Shown here one piece after another: positions 20,797 through 28,078 of a DNA stretch of 64,000 bases (positions are counted from its first letter, which is position 1; every line of letters starts with the position of its first letter). A program made the translations under genes and the position numbers. The stretch is from Bacteroidales bacterium (GTDB taxonomy: Bacteria; Bacteroidota; Bacteroidia; Bacteroidales; UBA932). The stretch is taken from assembly GCA_017634595.1 (NCBI GenBank), contig JAGBNC010000019.1:62001-126000 (forward strand), read 5' to 3'. The notes under the pieces are model-generated. The model was not told the origin of the DNA. It was given only the letters and a program-made list of their open reading frames with translations, and did not search any database.

Positions 20797-21742
20797 ACGA
20801 AAGCCTTCCGCACCAGCAGGCACCGGCCATCAGGCACAGACTCCGGTAATGCAGCATGACACCGGCTTCGGCAGCCGGACCTTCATAACTATAATCACTT
20901 ACTGTTGCCCAATTTCCTGCATCATCCTGCCAAGTGAGGTGGTGAGCACCGTAGCCGGCACCGCCGAAGATTGACCATAAGCCATTCTTGCCAACATTGA
21001 CATCTAAGCCGGCAGTCACGTTCCATCTGCTATACCGCTCGACACTGTTTCCCCAAAATACGCCGCCTCCGTTGATGGCTCCTGAAGATGATACGGAGTA
21101 CGAAGCATCGGAACCTATGAAATTGCTCCTGAAGCTCGTATATACGCCGGTCTTGCCGGACCATCTGTACAAGCCCAGGAATCCGAATGCCGGCCTGACA
21201 CCCCAATCAGCTATGGCCAGTATAGCAAAGCGATTATAATCAACCACTGCTTCCGGAACTTTCGTTTGACCTCTTCTGGCAGGGGTAAACAGCACATCTT
21301 CAGACAGTGATGCAGTACAACTGATTCCGGCAAGTGCAGGAACTTCCGGGACTGTCCTTGGTGCAGGTGCGGGCTCGGACGTAACAAGCGGGGCTGACGG
21401 TGCCTGATACACTTTGGCCCTGATGCGGGTCCTGGCCGTAACCGCTTGCCCGGCAGGCTCGTAGCTGTCTTTAATCTTCTGGAAACGCCGGCGCTGTGCG
21501 GCAGTCATTGAGCCGGAAGCAATCTGAAGCTGCGAGCGCAGGCTGTTAAGCTCAGCAATGAGCCGCGTCACGGAACTGGCTTTCACGGACTCTCCAGATG
21601 TAACTAACTTTCGCATTTGGATGCATTGCCCGCAGATATCCTCATAGCGGTCCAGGACCTTGTCCCAACTCTCTTGTGCCCCGGAAAGCCAGGGCCTCGA
21701 AAAGAGTAAAATGACAATTAGTATGCTGCGCAAATGCTTCAC
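20768..21742 (-). CDS. Exported coiled-coil protein with C-terminal barrel-like domain
   Basis: No ATG fits. A GTG at 21742 gives a signal peptide (VKHLRSILIVILLFS, cleavage near SGAQES) just after a TACATTTG box. The 324-residue product has a helical part with a CGQC motif (about 35) and charged helices (about 30-110), then a Pro/Ala-rich linker (about 115-165). A C-terminal half rich in alternating aromatic strands ends in GLGLSF, as outer-membrane barrels do. I do not recognise a named family. It is divergent from the Ser/Thr kinase, so a joint envelope role is possible. A longer frame from 21853 would run through both promoters and is unlikely. Confidence 0.72.
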   Translation of the reverse strand: MKHLRSILIVILLFSRPWLSGAQESWDKVLDRYEDICGQCIQMRKLVTSGESVKASSVTRLIAELNSLRSQLQIASGSMTAAQRRRFQKIKDSYEPAGQAVTARTRIRAKVYQAPSAPLVTSEPAPAPRTVPEVPALAGISCTASLSEDVLFTPARRGQTKVPEAVVDYNRFAILAIADWGVRPAFGFLGLYRWSGKTGVYTSFRSNFIGSDASYSVSSSGAINGGGVFWGNSVERYSRWNVTAGLDVNVGKNGLWSIFGGAGYGAHHLTWQDDAGNWATVSDYSYEGPAAEAGVMLHYRSLCLMAGACWCGRLSFTTGLGLSF

Positions 21743-21747
21743 GGGCA

Positions 21748-21776
21748 CAAATGTATGCAAAAAATACTTACATTTG
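21748..21776. promoter_or_regulatory. Mirror-image divergent promoters with near-leaderless starts
   Basis: TACATTTG occurs on the minus strand (21755-21748) and again on the plus strand (21769-21776), separated by 13 bp. Each box is followed after exactly 5 nt by a start codon: GTG at 21742 on the minus strand, ATG at 21782 on the plus strand. With transcription starting about 5-8 nt after the box, both mRNAs would be leaderless or nearly so. Confidence 0.7.
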
Positions 21777-21781
21777 TTCCG

Positions 21782-22690
21782 ATGAATGAAGATTCGGGCT
21801 TTTTTACTCCACTGCAGCCGGACAAGCAGAACGTTCCAATGGAGCTGATACACAGCTCCGGGAGCGGATGGAGTGAATTGTATCGGATTGACAAGGATGG
21901 TCGTTTCAGGGTGCTGAAGGCCTTGAAGCCGGAGTACAGGGGACAGTCCCTTTATGAGTCACTGCTTCGGAAAGAGTATGAAATAGGTTATTCGCTCTCT
22001 CACCCTTATATCTGCGAGGTGTATGGCTTCGTGGATTTGCCGGATGTGGGGCATGCTATCGAGATGGAGTGGGTCGATGGTGCTCCGTTGTCGGATCTGC
22101 TCCAAAGGCGGCGCCTTCCACACAGGGATGCGAAACGAATTGCGGCACAGTTGTGCGATGCCTTATCTTACCTTCACTCCAAACAAGTCGTCCATAGGGA
22201 CATCAAGCCATCTAACGTTCTTGTTACTCACAACGGAAAGAATCTGAAACTCATTGACTTCGGTCTTTCTGACACTGACAGCTTCGCCATGCTCAAGGGG
22301 GCTGCCGGCACTGAATCATTTGCAGCACCGGAGCTTCATGACGGCACCGGAGGAGACTGGCGGTCAGATATTTGGTCTCTGGGAAAGGTAATAGGACTGA
22401 TGCTTCCTTCGTCCCGCAACGTCGTCAGGAGGTGCACCTCGGAGCTTCCGGAGAAACGTTACAGCGACGCTTCAGATGTGAAGGCGGCACTCATGCGGAA
22501 GCCCTTGTGGCCATGGTGCCTTGTGCTGATGGGTGCCGCGGCATTATTCATGGCGTTAGTGACTAGAAACGATATTGCTGTAAATGAACCGGAGCCGCTT
22601 GTCCACGCTGAAGATTCATCCGTCGTGACAGATCCTGCAGTGATAGATGAACTGTTCATGCAGGCCACGGATATGATAGAGTCACGCTAG
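21782..22690 (+). CDS. Hanks-type Ser/Thr protein kinase with C-terminal membrane anchor
   Basis: The 302-residue protein has a kinase domain (about 20-235) with all key motifs: a Gly-rich loop SGSGWSELY, the ATP Lys in RVLKALKPEY, catalytic VVHRDIKPSNVLV, metal-binding IDFGLSD, and AAPEL for the APE motif. A single membrane helix (WPWCLVLMGAAALFMALV, about 242-260) follows, then a short acidic tail of about 40 residues on the far side. It should phosphorylate Ser/Thr of cytoplasmic targets. The tail is too short for a PASTA-like sensor. It shares a divergent promoter region with the coiled-coil/barrel gene and converges on the gene at 22687. Confidence 0.93.
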   Translation: MNEDSGFFTPLQPDKQNVPMELIHSSGSGWSELYRIDKDGRFRVLKALKPEYRGQSLYESLLRKEYEIGYSLSHPYICEVYGFVDLPDVGHAIEMEWVDGAPLSDLLQRRRLPHRDAKRIAAQLCDALSYLHSKQVVHRDIKPSNVLVTHNGKNLKLIDFGLSDTDSFAMLKGAAGTESFAAPELHDGTGGDWRSDIWSLGKVIGLMLPSSRNVVRRCTSELPEKRYSDASDVKAALMRKPLWPWCLVLMGAAALFMALVTRNDIAVNEPEPLVHAEDSSVVTDPAVIDELFMQATDMIESR

Positions 22691-23244
22691 TCCAGCTCCA
22701 GAGCTTGCAAGCCGGCGCTTCTGCCGGCAACATAGGAAGGCAAAACCTCACCATTGCGTTCGATATGATCCAGATAGAGAGGATGCCCTTTCAAGAACGA
22801 AAAAGCCTCGAAAACATCTCCTTCCCGTAGCTTGGAACTGCCCCCATCGAGTACTGTGTACCGGTTATTACCGTTGTACTGCACTGTCACGCAGCGGTCG
22901 GGCAGCCAGCGGAGAATCAGTCTTGAGCCCGGAGCCAGCAAGGCGCTATCGATCTTCTCTGTGGACAAGAATCCTGAAGTCTGCTTAATCTCTTCACACA
23001 GAGAAAGAAAATCACGCCTCCCCACAAATCTGGACAGTATGTCGAGGGTCGCAGTCCTGGGCCTCGGATGCATGCTCACGTAGCCCCAGATACGTTTGAG
23101 GGTTGACGAAGAAATGCGCTCGTGCGTTGATGTCTCTATCCTTTCAGCTAGAGCATCGAAGTCTGTGGTGGTCTCAAGCCGGCCGCTGAAGATCCTGGCA
23201 GTCTCGTCGATAAGGAATTGCAGTTCAGAGGATTTATCAGTCAT
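22687..23244 (-). CDS. Bacteroidota-specific protein with HTH-like N-terminus
   Basis: The 185-residue protein shows a helical N-terminal half (about 1-85) with ISSSTLKRIWGYV, which resembles a helix-turn-helix recognition segment and recurs in Bacteroidota proteins of unknown function. The C-terminal half (about 100-180) is strand-rich (RLILRWLPDRCVTVQYNG; LREGDVFEAFSFLKGHPLYLDH). No catalytic residues are evident. It starts 8 bp inside the end of the upstream lipoprotein gene (same strand) and ends overlapping the kinase stop. A regulatory role is inferred from fold hints only. Confidence 0.75.
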   Translation of the reverse strand: MTDKSSELQFLIDETARIFSGRLETTTDFDALAERIETSTHERISSSTLKRIWGYVSMHPRPRTATLDILSRFVGRRDFLSLCEEIKQTSGFLSTEKIDSALLAPGSRLILRWLPDRCVTVQYNGNNRYTVLDGGSSKLREGDVFEAFSFLKGHPLYLDHIERNGEVLPSYVAGRSAGLQALELD

Positions 23245-24325
23245 AGTGGATAATTGTTACTCCAGGTTCTGTTCTGAGTGTGCCAATGACCTGTCCCTTG
23301 GCAAGATAGATAGTCTTAAGATACGTGCAACCGCTACAATCTGCAATGTCAAGTTTCGGACAGCGGGACAGATCGATGACAGACAAATCGGTGTTGTTGA
23401 TGTCAATGTAGCGGAGCATTTTGTTCTCGAGCGTTATCTCTTTCAGCGGATTGTGGTCCAGGTGAAGCTCATCCAGCTTGTCAAGCCCGCTTAAGTCTAT
23501 ACTGCCCAGACGGTTGTAAGCTACATCGACGAAGTCAAGACTCTTATAGTCACGCAGGTCGATGGCTGTCAGTTCATTGATGCAGAAAGCTACATTGCAC
23601 AGCTGGGTTTTAACTGAGGGGAGGGTGACGCTGCTGATGTGATTGTGCGGCACGTATATGATTTGCAATTCACTGCATGCCGATGCATCAAGCTCGGTCA
23701 GCCGTCCTTCTCCGATGTCACCGAAGCGCGTGCCCTCTGCATGAATTTTATGAAGATGGGGGAAGAAGGACAGGCTCGCTAAAGTGCTGATTCTGTCGGT
23801 GTTGATCTCTATTGTGCCAATCATGGCCGCTTCCTCCGGACTAAGTGTTCCGTCGGAATCGGCATCATAAAACTTAAGTAGCCATGCCAAAAAAAATGCG
23901 TCCTTGATTGACGGGTTTTCCGGGATGTCGGGCGTGTCCGGGATCGAGAAGGTTTTGAAACTGATGGGAGAGGAACTGCGCTTTTGCCCTGCTCCGTTGG
24001 AGATAAACGCTGACACGGAGTACTCACTGCCTGCATTAAGCCCTTGGGGTTCAGCACGCATTGCGTCGCCCTCGATCGAGGCCATAATATCCCGTGTTTC
24101 GCTGCCGTCTGCCGCCACGATGGTAAAGCCTCCTGACTCTACCTGGGAGCCGTCGCTTACTCTTGCCGTGAGAGTCGCGGAACTGCTTGTGATGCCCGTC
24201 ACAGATACCTCTAGGATCTCAGGGGCTATAACACTCCCGACATCGGGCAGGAAAGTCCCACAAGAGGACAGCAGAAGCGCCATGGCTGAGTAAAGAATGC
24301 AAAGTAGGTTTATTCTCTCGAACAT
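23237..24325 (-). CDS. Surface lipoprotein with Fn3-like and LRR-like regions
   Basis: The ATG is at 24325; a GTG at 24328 is also possible. The signal peptide ends in LLLSSC. Residues about 38-130 look like an Fn3-type domain (ILEVSVTGITSSSATLTARV; NAGSEYSVSAFISNGAG). DADSDGTLSPEEA (about 155-167) is an EF-hand/dockerin-like calcium loop. Residues about 180-350 are irregular leucine-rich repeats (LTAIDLRDYKSLDFVDVAYN and similar). The product, about 362 residues, is probably exposed on the surface and protein-binding; the ligand is unknown. It is the first gene of a two-gene operon with the 185-residue protein. Confidence 0.85.
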   Translation of the reverse strand: MFERINLLCILYSAMALLLSSCGTFLPDVGSVIAPEILEVSVTGITSSSATLTARVSDGSQVESGGFTIVAADGSETRDIMASIEGDAMRAEPQGLNAGSEYSVSAFISNGAGQKRSSSPISFKTFSIPDTPDIPENPSIKDAFFLAWLLKFYDADSDGTLSPEEAAMIGTIEINTDRISTLASLSFFPHLHKIHAEGTRFGDIGEGRLTELDASACSELQIIYVPHNHISSVTLPSVKTQLCNVAFCINELTAIDLRDYKSLDFVDVAYNRLGSIDLSGLDKLDELHLDHNPLKEITLENKMLRYIDINNTDLSVIDLSRCPKLDIADCSGCTYLKTIYLAKGQVIGTLRTEPGVTIIHYD

Positions 24326-24332
24326 CACAATT

Positions 24333-24393: not shown

Positions 24394-24424
24394 TTGATAT
24401 ATACTCAGTAAGTTTTGATATTTG
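24394..24424 (+). promoter_or_regulatory. Promoter of the AT-rich nuclease/radical SAM cassette
   Basis: TTG at 24394-24396, a 20-nt spacer and GATATTTG at 24417-24424 match the promoter pattern with one substitution (G for the first T of TAnnTTTG). The first ATG of the cassette is 19 bp downstream at 24444. Confidence 0.55.
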
Positions 24425-24443
24425 TTCTCATTATTACATCATT

Positions 24444-24608
24444 ATGAACACAAAAAACATGAAAGAGCTCACGGAGATAGGTCGAAAACAATTGACTAAT
24501 ATTGATATCTCTAAACAGAAACAATACATACACAAAAAAGGAGAGAATTTTGGTGATGCTCTATCCAAAGCTATAGATACACTTGTAGATTTATTTATTA
24601 AGAAATAA
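24444..24608 (+). CDS. Unrecognised 54-residue charged protein
   Basis: ATG 24444 to TAA 24608 encodes 54 residues rich in Lys and Asp/Glu (opens MNTKNMKELTEIGRKQL; ends DALSKAIDTLVDLFIKK). The C-terminal 20 residues can form an amphipathic helix. No family is recognised. It is first in a tightly packed plus-strand series: 2 bp separate it from the next 54-residue protein, which in turn overlaps the nuclease gene. The equal lengths of the two small proteins may be coincidence. It could be an immunity or accessory protein, or a leader; none of these is shown. Confidence 0.65.
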   Translation: MNTKNMKELTEIGRKQLTNIDISKQKQYIHKKGENFGDALSKAIDTLVDLFIKK

Positions 24609-24610
24609 CC

Positions 24611-24775
24611 ATGGCCCAATCAGATTTAGCGAAGGCATTGTTAAAAGTAGGCGCCGGTCTGGCACTGCTCGCAGGTTCAATATTTACTGGAGCCGCAGGT
24701 AAGAAGACTATTGACCATGCCCGTAATGATTATTCAAATTTCACCAACGGTAAGACAGCTCTGCCCAAAAAATAA
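24611..24775 (+). CDS. Unrecognised 54-residue protein with a hydrophobic helix
   Basis: ATG 24611 to TAA 24775 encodes 54 residues with one clear hydrophobic segment (LLKVGAGLALLAGSIFTGAA, about 10-29), then a charged tail (GKKTIDHARNDYSNF). It could be a single-pass membrane protein or a signal-like leader. Its stop overlaps the next ATG as TAATG, so translation of the HNH nuclease gene is coupled to it. That favours a shared role, for example membrane immunity or delivery for the nuclease, but this is inference. Confidence 0.7.
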   Translation: MAQSDLAKALLKVGAGLALLAGSIFTGAAGKKTIDHARNDYSNFTNGKTALPKK

Positions 24776-25485
24776 TGCTCATTTCGTTGTGGAACAAGTT
24801 ATACGCTAATGCATTCAATAAAGGGAATCCGGCCCATGTTGACCGTATGTCAATCAGTGAAAGGGCAATAAAGATTTCCGAACTTCAGATGCGTTTAGAT
24901 CGTATTGAAAACGATAGGGAGAAGCAGACAATGTTTGATTCCTACCCAATGGGTGTACAGAAAATGCTGGATGACTTGTGGGCACAATTATACAGCGACA
25001 ACGGGCGGAAGAACATTCCAAACACGGGCGGTACTTGGAAAGGGAAGGCCGGAGAGTCTATGTGGATACCCGATGATAATGTAATTCCCCCAAATAAGGG
25101 CTATAGCAACATGAAGCATAAGACTTGGGGCCGAATAAAACATGAAAACAATATTAAAGGAATTGTTTTCAATGATGGCCGAGCAGATTTTAAGCCTATT
25201 GCTTTATATTCAGTTGCTCTTGACTGGGAAAAAGCACTCGGATTGGATGGCCTTCGTTATTTGGTTAATACAGGAGACCGCCAATATTTACATGAAGCGG
25301 CATTTTCAAAGCTTGCAAATCAATTAGGCTGTTCCGTGCAGAACATTAAAGAAATAAAGGAACATAAGAATCTTGTATGGCATGAAGAAACCGATTGCAA
25401 GACAATGCAGTTGGTTGTTCGTGAAGTTCATGATAATGTAAAGCATTTCGGGGGAATCGCAATGTTGGCAATAGTGTTGAAGTGA
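24775..25485 (+). CDS. HNH/Endo VII-superfamily nuclease, toxin-like
   Basis: The 236-residue protein has a helical N-terminus (about 1-75, charged). A middle segment (PNTGGTWKGKAGESMWIPDD, then TWGRIKHENNIKGIVFNDG and ADFKPIA) resembles the start of HNH toxin modules. The C-terminus LVWHEETDCKTMQLVVREVH then NVKHFGG fits the WHH/LHH-type pattern WHE-x8-MQLV-x4-H-x4-H-x-GG, the metal and catalytic site. Such domains occur as tips of polymorphic toxins, but here it is a stand-alone small protein with no long delivery domain. It is TAATG-coupled to the upstream gene and TGATG-coupled to the radical SAM gene. DNA cleavage is likely; the target and immunity protein are not identified. Confidence 0.75.
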   Translation: MLISLWNKLYANAFNKGNPAHVDRMSISERAIKISELQMRLDRIENDREKQTMFDSYPMGVQKMLDDLWAQLYSDNGRKNIPNTGGTWKGKAGESMWIPDDNVIPPNKGYSNMKHKTWGRIKHENNIKGIVFNDGRADFKPIALYSVALDWEKALGLDGLRYLVNTGDRQYLHEAAFSKLANQLGCSVQNIKEIKEHKNLVWHEETDCKTMQLVVREVHDNVKHFGGIAMLAIVLK

Positions 25486-26883
25486 TGGAGACGACTTATT
25501 ATCGCCCAATGTGGACCTGCGGCAGGTTCCATCTGGAAACGAAATCAGCAATTCTATATAACCTCATAAGCGGAAAATGCTTTTATTTTGAGGGTGAATC
25601 CGCAATTGTCATTGGCGAATACCTGTCTATTAAGAGGAAAGGTTGTTTAAACGTATCCAGTATCGCTGCTAAAACGGGAATATCTGTTCTTGCAATTACT
25701 CGTTTTGTCAATATTCTTTGTTCGAAAGGTCTAGTCCTGAATCAAAAGCCGTCGCCGGAGAACGAGTCAAAATACCGTACTTTAATGGCATCCCGGCGGA
25801 CATCGCTTCGTCTTGCACAGAATGATAGTGACAACACAGATCCTGCAAGTCTGCGCACGGCGGAAAAAGCGTATGCGATCAGGACTAATGTGTCAGTGAC
25901 GAACGTTTTGATAGAGCTTACTTATAATTAATTGCAGTGAAAGATGCGTACATTGTTACAATCCCGGAGCCACAAGGAATGATTCTGAAAAGCAATCCAG
26001 ATATCTTTGGAAGGGGCTTCCTCTGGATAGATACAAGCAATTGATTGACGACCTCTACGAACTTGGTACTGCAAGAATATGTCTTTCGGGAGGAGACCCT
26101 TTTTCTTATCCTTTTGCATGGGAACTGATTGATTATATATCCCGTAAAGAAATAGCGTTGGAAATTTATACAAAAGGGCAATCTCTCGTTGGGAAAGCAC
26201 AAAGGCTGGCCTCATATTATCCATGCGTTGTTGGTATATCTCTATACAGTAGCAATCCTGTTCAACACGATAGTATTACGCGGATTCCCGGGTCTTTTGA
26301 TCGCTCTTTATCTGTCATTGAAGATCTTTCTGCTTTATCAGTACCATTGCAGATCAAGTGTTGCGTGATGAGGCCAAATTTGAGCTCTTATTTCGGCGTT
26401 GCGGAAATAGCACTAAAATATGGAGCGCGTGATAGGAATATGAATGAAGTTGCTTGCTATGCGAGAAAATATGGGATTTGCATAACTCCAAACGGCACAG
26501 TTATACCATGCGTTTCATTCCATACTCGACTTGGGAATATCCTCGATGATGCAATATCAAATATATTGTCAGACAATCCTGCCTTGAAAAAACTATCTAA
26601 AGCTTTTTTGCATAAATACGAAGATTGTGGCCGACATCCGTATTGTTCCTTTTGCATGATTTGTCCTGGCCTCAATTTCAGCGAGACTGGAAGTATGTTT
26701 GAGGTAAATGAAAACAATTGTTATACAGCTAAGGTAAGGTACAATCTTTCTTTAAAAATGAAGGGCGGCTATGATCCTCTTGGTGGAAAAACTCTTGAAG
26801 ACAAATTATCATCGATGGGTGACAGTTCGATGCCTTGTGTAAAGAAAATCATGAGTAAGAGCCATTTAGACGAAATAATTTAG
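25485..26883 (+). pseudogene. Radical SAM/SPASM enzyme with PqqD-like N-terminus, split by a 4-bp duplication
   Basis: Two adjacent frames together form one radical SAM protein. The first (ATG 25485 to TAA 25931, 148 residues) is a PqqD/RRE-like winged domain (FHLETKSAILYNLISGKCF; SIAAKTGISVLAITRFV). It ends VTNVLIELTYN, the usual lead-in to a radical SAM site. The next frame continues NCSERCVHCYNPGATRND (Cx3Cx2C cluster), CLSGGDPFSYP, and a C-terminal SPASM-like Cys region (ITPNGTVIPC; CGRHPYCSFCMICPG). A tandem TAAT at 25925-25932 causes the shift; removing one copy joins both into about 464 residues. The barrel also seems short before SPASM (YGA directly followed by RDRNMNE). Family role: peptide modification in RiPP-type pathways. 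It may be a pseudogene, a phase-variable gene or an assembly error. Confidence 0.8.
25925..25932 (+). repeat. TAATTAAT tandem 4-bp duplication at the radical SAM frameshift
   Basis: TAAT occurs twice in tandem exactly where frame 0 stops (AAT TAA). With one copy removed, the sequence reads ACT TAT AAT TGC AGT, giving TYNCS and an unbroken enzyme. It is the smallest change that restores the conserved CxxxCxxC context. Confidence 0.8.
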
Positions 26884-26907
26884 TGTTTAACCATAGTATT
26901 CACCGTT

Positions 26908-27018
26908 ATGAATGAAGATCTGAAAATCTCAATTGAGTCCGATGTGACAGTCGGGGTGTGTAAGGCAAATGCAAACAATCTTCTCATAGGTTGCAATGGG
27001 CGTAATTATTGCCTTTAA
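26908..27018 (+). CDS. 36-residue Cys-containing peptide, candidate RiPP precursor
   Basis: ATG 26908 to TAA 27018 encodes 36 residues: a charged leader-like half (MNEDLKISIESDVTVG) and a C-terminal half with Cys at 18, 29 and 35, several Asn and Gly, ending NGRNYCL. It starts 24 bp after the stop of the radical SAM/SPASM gene, the usual place for a modified-peptide precursor. The PqqD-like domain upstream would bind the leader and the enzyme would form thioether or carbon-carbon cross-links in the core. No family match is recognised and the ORF is short, so this is a candidate. Confidence 0.55.
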   Translation: MNEDLKISIESDVTVGVCKANANNLLIGCNGRNYCL

Positions 27019-27034
27019 TTACATTATTCTCGCT

Positions 27035-27085
27035 GGCGGACAGGATTGAGCCGTATTCCTGTCCGTTAGCCGGGCTTTGTCCGCC
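27035..27085 (+). other. Hairpin with an alternative pairing partner downstream of the cassette
   Basis: CGGACAGGA (27037-27045) and TCCTGTCCG (27057-27065) form a perfect 9-bp stem. The outer GGCGGACA (27035-27042) can instead pair with TGTCCGCC (27078-27085). No T-run follows, so it is not a standard intrinsic terminator. It lies between the AT-rich cassette and the WYL regulator gene and may mark the cassette's edge. Confidence 0.45.
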
Positions 27086-27178: not shown

Positions 27179-28078
27179 ATGGACCAGCCGAAACTTGAGC
27201 GCATGCTGCGCTTGATGAAATACCTGTCGGGGAATGTTAACTACAGCATTGAGGAGTTGAGCCGCAAGCTGGAGATGTCACCGCGTACAGTGTACCGCTA
27301 CATCGACACCTTCAAGAGCGCAGGCTTTGCCGTAACCAAGCTTTATGGCGATATCTACAAACTTGCGGAGATGCCTAAGGAAACACTTGAACTGGAGAAG
27401 CTTATCTATTTCTCCGAAGAGGAGGCGTATCTGGTCAATTCCCTTATAGATCAGCTGGTTCCGACCAATAGCCTGAAGGCCAACTTGAAGGAAAAGCTCT
27501 CCGCCATCTACCGCTCCACCAGCATCGCCGACTTTGTGGGTGCCAAGAGCAATGCGGCTCATGTTGATGCCCTTGGAAAAGCTGCCCAGGACAAGCTCAA
27601 AGCCCGGCTCAAGGACTATGAATCGGGTAATTCACACACTATCCGCGACCGCTTGGTAGAGCCCTTCGGATTCACATCAGACTACGCCGACGTATGGGCC
27701 TTTGACCTTGAAGACGGACGCAATAAGACATTCAAGATATCACGTATCGGCGGGGAAGTCGAGATTCTCGATGAGCCGTGGACAGAAGAGCCCCGTCACC
27801 GTCGCTCGCAGATGGACGTGTTCCGCATGACCGGTGACAAGACAATGCGTATTATATTGAGCATGAGCCTTATGGCCAAGAACCTGCTGGAAGAAGAGTA
27901 CCCTATGGCGGCTTCACACATACGACAGGATTCCGGGCGCTGGATACTTGATACGGAAATATGCCAGCTTCAAGGTGCGGCGCGCTTCGTGTCCGGTCTC
28001 ATGGGCGAGATAGAAATACTCCAAGGCAAAGAATTGAAAGCGTATCTAGCTGAATACGGGCAAAAATACTTCAAATGA
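27179..28078 (+). CDS. HTH-WYL transcriptional regulator
   Basis: With the start at 27179 the protein is 299 residues. The N-terminal winged HTH (MLRLMKYLSGNVNYSIEELS; RTVYRYIDTF, about 5-50) is the HTH_11/DeoR-like type found in WYL proteins. The middle and C-terminal part (about 130-295) fits a WYL-type ligand domain (RLVEPFGFTSDYADVWAFDL; RIILSMSLMAKNLLEEEYP). These regulators sense nucleotides or small ligands and control stress or defence genes. Its stop overlaps the start of the downstream serine hydrolase (ATGATG), so the two are cotranscribed. The target is unknown. Confidence 0.85.
   Translation: MDQPKLERMLRLMKYLSGNVNYSIEELSRKLEMSPRTVYRYIDTFKSAGFAVTKLYGDIYKLAEMPKETLELEKLIYFSEEEAYLVNSLIDQLVPTNSLKANLKEKLSAIYRSTSIADFVGAKSNAAHVDALGKAAQDKLKARLKDYESGNSHTIRDRLVEPFGFTSDYADVWAFDLEDGRNKTFKISRIGGEVEILDEPWTEEPRHRRSQMDVFRMTGDKTMRIILSMSLMAKNLLEEEYPMAASHIRQDSGRWILDTEICQLQGAARFVSGLMGEIEILQGKELKAYLAEYGQKYFK

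Follow-up and report, generated by a model that had tools for sequence, protein, structure and literature searches.

Whether a nuclease and a peptide-modifying enzyme encoded side by side also act together is the question raised by a 64,000-nucleotide stretch of DNA from a Bacteroidales bacterium (lineage UBA932; assembly GCA_017634595.1, contig JAGBNC010000019.1, positions 62,001 to 126,000), referred to here as the window. A cassette at 24444-27018 of the window joins, on the forward strand, two 54-residue open reading frames (ORFs), named P1 and P2 here, an HNH nuclease, a radical SAM-SPASM enzyme and a short Cys peptide. A first, sequence-only reading of this DNA treated the five genes as a single unit, and possibly as a combined bacteriocin or conflict system in which the enzyme matures a ribosomally synthesised and post-translationally modified peptide (RiPP). 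The follow-up described below leads to another answer: the cassette probably holds two unrelated accessory modules, set head to tail within an acquired AT-rich insert and lying beside a further module of a kinase, a 185-residue protein and a lipoprotein-like protein. The first module, P1-P2-HNH, would carry an intact-looking nuclease of the WHH/colicin-DNase type, and the second would be a decayed copy of a radical SAM RiPP-type cassette of Bacteroidales.

A radical SAM-SPASM enzyme probably in decay

Relatives of the enzyme were gathered by using three intact ones as queries against 84,980 species genomes, which returned 39 loci. One archaeal locus (L075, 29% identity) was excluded before all counts, and the remaining 38 loci represent 37 genomes, two of them (L061 and L069) sharing one. 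The record titles of these loci are of Bacteroidales type, many of them from ruminants. An alignment and a tree were built with 26 of the 38, picked by hand; the alignment has 28 rows, the two pieces of the window enzyme having been entered as separate rows.

The sequence-only reading had counted the enzyme as one ORF, and it is found to occupy two frames. The first (25485-25931) encodes the N-terminal region and stops at 25931 after "..VLIELTYN", just ahead of the CxxxCxxC motif, and the radical SAM core and SPASM piece (25933-26883, beginning CSERCVHCY...) follow in a different frame on the same strand. Both of these domains, named in the sequence-only reading, score above their Pfam cut-offs. 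The break, described here as it is seen in the sequence, falls within 25920-25940 and is located at a short tandem repeat. Furthermore, 51 alignment columns between the core and the SPASM region, at nucleotide ~26427/26428, are absent from the window alone; all 26 aligned relatives fill this block with 49-51 residues each, several positions of which are near-invariant. Intact relatives read the N-terminal region, the radical SAM core and the SPASM domain in one frame of about 500-540 residues, and the enzyme is single-frame in 36 of the 38 loci, unlike that of the window. On the tree, the end branch of the window enzyme measures 1.33 against a median of 0.18. It clusters apart from the L037 copy, which comes from the same genus, and because the branch is long its exact placement is unsure. 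Judged from these features, the gene is probably a decaying pseudogene. With its frame interrupted and a conserved block gone, the enzyme has probably lost its modification step in the window.

The enzyme might nevertheless still work, if the break came from faulty assembly, or acted as an on/off switch of the slippage type at the short repeat, and the missing block were a natural shortening. The CxxxCxxC and GGDP motifs are retained, as are seven SPASM-region cysteines that align with those of the relatives. The position of the break at a tandem repeat and a peptide frame that remains open are likewise consistent with a functional enzyme. Against it stand the presence of the missing block in every aligned relative, the long end branch and the loss of the CGIxYR end from the peptide described below, and a working enzyme at this locus is regarded as distinctly unlikely.

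A recurrent pairing of enzyme and peptide

The peptide gene of the window (26908-27018, forward strand) encodes 36 residues and begins 24 bp after the enzyme stop at 26883, a gap that had been reported correctly. The presence of a short Cys peptide beside the enzyme was likewise borne out, as the same arrangement is found in the relatives: a peptide of ~34 residues follows the enzyme gene in 36 of the 38 Bacteroidales loci. For each locus, a model built without close sequences was run over all frames of that locus. In 35 of 38, the top score fell to the frame immediately following the enzyme gene (E 3.7e-4 or better). At L067 the best peptide frame lies ~340 bp further downstream (E 6e-18), and the two loci without a peptide, L071 and L073, both encode truncated enzymes, L073 lying near a contig end. 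In its common form the peptide reads MKVxLxISxASxVVxMSxCPKxxExxCGIxYRxx; the core ends differently in L053, L064, L066 and L069. The pairing of enzyme and peptide is genuine and recurrent. The window peptide is a divergent member of this precursor family: it is the best of 1747 window frames under models built without it, its first half fits the family, and the CGIxYR end is gone.

The window peptide had no match in the libraries scanned, nor did the peptide of one relative in NCBIfam. No specific NCBIfam or Pfam model was found for the enzyme-peptide pair, and no equivalog came near its cut-off among the best 25 of the 43-56 NCBIfam matches per protein of three intact relatives. The literature searched, to which the 2022 radical SAM RiPP atlas did not belong, contained no paper on the pair, which apparently represents a recurrent and unnamed Bacteroidales family of the radical SAM RiPP type. 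As a separate observation, the peptide frame of L050 (7593-7655) stops after 20 codons, and the copy of L049, identical over those 20 residues, is intact; the early stop may be another sign of decay in the peptide family.

The N-terminal region of the enzyme had been labelled PqqD in the sequence-only reading. This label found no support, as no PqqD model matched the window piece, one full-length relative or the N-terminal regions of five relatives. The region is conserved, with 31-40% identity to relatives L037-L074, and is weakly winged-helix-like. The sub-cut-off Pfam matches of the window piece are mostly to winged-helix families (MarR, 3e-4), those of four of the five relatives' regions are again mostly winged-helix, with none for the fifth, and a search of PDB profiles yielded no PqqD, its matches being for the most part winged-helix regulators (E 0.014 and weaker). 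These weak resemblances do no more than suggest a domain of the PqqD/RiPP recognition element (RRE) type. By analogy, a role as a peptide-recognition element stays likely, because such elements of these maturases are winged-helix folds. In the intact relatives, the N-terminal region would probably hold the peptide by its conserved first half (MKVxLxISxASxVV), while the radical SAM domain would form a bond, perhaps a thioether, at the Cys-rich half (CPKxxExxCGIxYR).

The nuclease module

The front of the cassette comprises P1 (24444-24608), a basic ORF of 29.7% G+C; P2 (24611-24775), with one hydrophobic Gly/Ala-rich stretch; and the 236-residue HNH nuclease (24775-25485), all on the forward strand. 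The nuclease is of the WHH/colicin-DNase type, in agreement with the sequence-only reading: Pfam WHH matches residues 195-231 with 41.9 bits (cut-off 25.1; 8e-11) and Colicin-DNase residues 178-226 with 41.2 bits (cut-off 25; 3e-10). Its HNH motif, WHEETDCKTMQLVVREVHDNVKHFGG, lies at about 25378-25455, and most motif residues are common to both of its near homologues. The motif reads WHE..L..H..HxG where the toxin pattern has W-H-H, and the same is true of both homologues. The nuclease has no Pfam or NCBIfam match outside the nuclease domain, and P1 and P2 have none at all; by the same two libraries, the cassette contains no delivery or trafficking domain and no recognised immunity gene. The frame of the nuclease is intact. 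Its family points to a DNA-cleaving effector of conflict or defence as the most likely role, and it may act alone in the window.

Near homologues of the nuclease are rare. They occur in 3 of 101 relatives including its own genome, at E 1e-10 or better in 2 of 344 genomes of the order, again including its own genome, and, with a three-row model, in 1 of 296 genomes of the phylum, which is its own genome itself; some genomes may belong to more than one of these sets. HNH matches of 28-29% occur in six plasmid records (five Lactococcus, one Photobacterium), and PHROGs gave one weak match of unknown function (E 0.066). The nearest homologue, in genome G042, shares 61% identity over residues 27-234 and is the last gene of an operon (L023:1855-8709) that encodes three Dynamin_N GTPases and a coiled-coil protein ahead of this terminal WHH-type nuclease. 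The best PADLOC model for each of the three GTPases is LeoA or LeoBC, matched weakly (4e-10 to 3e-18), and this dynamin-HNH operon is a candidate defence operon. The second homologue, in G095, is 35% identical and sits between other genes in the 2.9 kb read.

These neighbours raise the prospect that P1-P2-HNH is what remains of a defence operon of the dynamin type, or a shortened version of one, with the nuclease effector left behind. The close relationship to the G042 nuclease, its terminal position in that operon and the LeoA/LeoBC affinities of the GTPases all favour such a descent, but P1 and P2 show no tblastn similarity to the G042 operon, the parallel consists of a single homologue, and the second has different neighbours. 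PADLOC, moreover, matched neither the nuclease nor P2, the two cassette proteins scanned, and a defence-system label was rejected for them. Descent from a dynamin operon is considered rather unlikely.

Base composition and origin of the insert

The AT-richness noted in the sequence-only reading is confirmed, the cassette having a G+C content of 40.4% against a sliding mean of 50.6% (standard deviation 2.7). Segments over the cassette have the lowest G+C of their size in the 64 kb, the next lowest elsewhere being 43.3%, and every gene from P1 to the peptide is low (29.7-44.8%). Because of this difference in composition, the stretch is taken to be an acquired AT-rich insert, and the transfer suggested earlier is supported, more weakly by the tree. 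The cassette would have been gained, the nuclease module placed in front of it, and the enzyme would have decayed.

A phage or plasmid origin was rejected for the enzyme, which has no relative in viral contigs and, at E 1e-30, none among plasmids (the search covered these two collections and no phage records), and a phage origin for the nuclease, which is found neither in phage records nor in viral contigs. In the flank search, other genomes were seen to carry the regulator gene that lies 3' of the cassette, and G135 gave a short match to the enzyme. Neither tRNAs nor Rfam families were detected at or near the cassette. A promoter scan returned 7 promoter-like sites against 8.5 in shuffled sequences; as it does not cover Bacteroidales promoters, it speaks neither for nor against the single promoter named in the sequence-only reading. 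Directly 3' of the peptide gene, a hairpin of 14 pairs (two of them G-U) without a T run occupies 27032-27070 on the forward strand, and the 92-nt stretch containing it folds moderately better than shuffles (z -2.0).

Two modules or one system

If the nuclease and the enzyme formed one working conflict system, the enzyme would mature the peptide and the nuclease would act with it, the two serving as toxin and modified peptide or the peptide as a modified immunity factor. The gene spacing encourages this idea, and was reported accurately in the sequence-only reading: P1 and P2 are separated by 2 bp, P2 and the nuclease gene overlap in TAATG, and the nuclease and enzyme genes overlap in TGATG, the enzyme ATG lying at 25485. 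The low G+C shared by all genes from P1 to the peptide points the same way. The distribution of the genes in other genomes does not. Neither the nuclease nor P1 has a tblastn match (E <=1) in any of the 38 loci of the enzyme; for P1, whose search covered the fetched loci rather than whole genomes, none was seen outside its own genome. P2 gave two chance-like matches in the 38 loci, one in L037 (E 0.007, also in L021) and one in L059 (0.20), both lying inside other genes and hence rejected as relatives. In other genomes of the genus, the best of four weak P2 matches (E 0.04), the one examined, is an ATP synthase subunit c; P2 appears to have no convincing relative. Conversely, no radical SAM gene lies around the two nearest nuclease homologues (16.5 kb and 2.9 kb read).

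Because the nuclease and radical SAM genes are not neighbours in any of the loci examined, an outcome that the sequence-only reading had itself named as refuting its unit, the joint nuclease-RiPP system put forward there is not sustained. It lacks a second example, the nuclease is rare, and a broken enzyme gene without a conserved block makes it unlikely that such a system works here. The pairing of nuclease and enzyme looks accidental from the sequences compared, and a single working system is held to be highly improbable.

Several points weigh against two independent modules in an acquired insert, with the second in decay. The one-nucleotide overlaps that run from P2 through the nuclease to the enzyme resemble one translated unit. 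With only two near homologues outside its own genome, the usual neighbours of the nuclease are poorly sampled. The E-values that place the window peptide in the precursor family are weak (0.056 and 0.26), the N-terminal region of the enzyme belongs to no recognised peptide-binding family by Pfam or PDB profiles, and the frame break is known from one assembly of 36 contigs and one strain. As for the insertion itself, the ~180 bp tested on each side contain no exact flanking repeat longer than 8 bp, and no empty site was found in the flank search, which matched 10 of 199 genomes. With these points taken into account, the two-module reading is still the one preferred here.

The kinase module and a dedicated companion protein

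Upstream of the cassette lie a Ser/Thr protein kinase gene (21734-22690, forward strand; Pkinase 1e-34), homologous to kinases near the enzyme in relatives; the gene for the 185-residue protein paired with it (22687-23244, reverse strand), without a Pfam model; and a gene for an fn3/leucine-rich repeat protein, by eye probably a lipoprotein (23237-24328, reverse strand). This last gene overlaps that of the 185-residue protein and forms part of the kinase module, and its product has a homologue in L104 (E 3e-14). No relative of the 185-residue family was found among solved structures. On the right flank, the cassette is followed by a helix-turn-helix regulator with a weak WCX match (27179-28078) and then by a beta-lactamase-family gene.

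Partners of the enzyme were sought by clustering the ORFs within 4 kb of it in the 38 loci and the window. A Ser/Thr kinase is present in 21 of the 38 loci, which are not independent events since related genomes share gene order, against ~0.24 expected by chance. This expectation was computed for an 11-kb neighbourhood of each locus from a count, made by hand and with the own genome left aside, of 66 kinases at E 4.4e-25 or better in the ~116 Mb of 37 genomes. The 185-residue protein is found in 15 of the 38 loci, all 15 of which also have the kinase. Three arrangements of the kinase occur, two upstream, one in each orientation, and one downstream on the opposite strand, and 11 changes of state were counted on the tree (26 rows labelled). 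An old link to the kinase in the genus and family of the window is disfavoured, because the kinase is absent from their loci (L037, L038 and L052).

A second companion is a protein of ~280 residues (277-299), whose gene starts 181-956 bp downstream of that of the enzyme in 25 of the 38 loci (for example, L063:7924-8769); L042 additionally encodes a 120-residue fragment of it. When 12 genome handles were searched (G275 and L037 are probably one genome), a single copy was found in each of the three genomes that have it beside the enzyme and none under the nine others, the own genome included. The one member scanned has no Pfam match. Its sequence, LHNAIHEQNYTWALELLDFEL, weakly resembles the catalytic loop of the window kinase (hhalign E 2e-4, probability 44%) around LHNAIxxQNxTWALELLDFE, a lead suggesting that the protein may be kinase-like. 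A SelO-like identity was rejected, as hhalign against one Escherichia coli SelO gave a probability of 0.2 and no SelO gene was found in 21 genomes.

What the association with the kinase means depends on how freely the kinase/185-residue pair travels. It may mark a hot spot of accessory genes, so that its nearness to radical SAM cassettes would say nothing of a shared pathway. The own genome has four such pairs, one in the window and the others in L103, L104 and L105, and by eye these other three lie near HipA-, AbiEi-, HEPN/MNT- or Hig-like genes or large surface proteins. In addition, the kinase may precede or follow the cassette, on either strand, and the window kinase matches PADLOC kinase models (best mad6, 2e-38; many PD-T4-6), as many Ser/Thr kinases may. 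Because of these toxin-antitoxin-like and surface-protein-like neighbours and the PADLOC matches, the hot spot is a fair rival to shared function, but the excess of kinases near the enzyme is one that a plain hot spot need not give; the chances of this explanation are put at about even. By eye, L103:5973-9987 also places AbiEi/MNT-HEPN-like, two-piece HipA-like and HigBA-like genes between or beside the kinase and its 185-residue partner.

If, conversely, the partners share a pathway with the enzyme, the second module would be the dying copy of an undescribed Bacteroidales system. Such a system would combine a radical SAM-SPASM enzyme, a ~34-residue precursor, a dedicated and perhaps kinase-like ~280-residue protein and the Ser/Thr kinase/185-residue pair, tying a RiPP to phospho-signalling or to toxin-antitoxin-like control, and in the window it would have been overrun by the WHH nuclease module. 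This proposal is tentative, being thought possible and well short of probable.

Relation to known systems and implications

The closest comparison for the enzyme is with RRE-fused radical SAM-SPASM RiPP maturases such as AlbA, StsB and CteB. The family described here resembles them in having an N-terminal region ahead of a CxxxCxxC radical SAM core, a seven-cysteine SPASM region and an adjoining short Cys peptide, and the AlbA and StsB models are among the NCBIfam matches of the three full-length relatives. These matches fall far under the cut-offs, however (AlbA 82 of 850 bits for L021, among the best 25 per protein), and the family differs further in the lack of any match between its N-terminal region and a PqqD/RRE model, in a precursor of just ~34 residues and in the broken state of the window copy.

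Radical SAM RiPP genes of Bacteroidales were the subject of a 2023 survey, in which the SPASM enzyme of BGC8 occurs with a two-Cys precursor for which thioethers were proposed (PMC10352776). The clusters in the part of that survey available to us share this class of enzyme and host order with the present family, but have GG-motif leaders, PCAT exporters, pseudo-radical SAM or two-component genes, and neither a CGIxYR peptide nor Ser/Thr kinase partners are described in that part (PMC10352776).

The nuclease, for its part, invites comparison with the polymorphic toxins, whose Tox-WHH pattern is given as W-H-H, L, H, HxG (PMC3482391). Like these Tox-WHH/colicin-DNase toxins it exceeds both Pfam cut-offs and retains the W-H, L, H, HxG pattern, but it reads WHE rather than WHH, and neither a delivery domain nor a recognised immunity gene turned up in its cassette. 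It shares with the G042 operon a closely related nuclease; the window cassette, in contrast, has no dynamin genes and has two unrelated 54-residue ORFs instead.

Together, these results dispose of an attractive but spurious case of a nuclease-RiPP hybrid and bring out in its place a compact and recurrent Bacteroidales family of 38 loci, comprising one enzyme and, in 36 of them, one ~34-residue peptide. Because the precursor is very short and the set of partners small, two or three genes should suffice to test the chemistry of this family. Its strong association with the Ser/Thr kinase/185-residue pair and with the dedicated ~280-residue protein poses a further testable question, that of a place for phosphorylation in RiPP biology.

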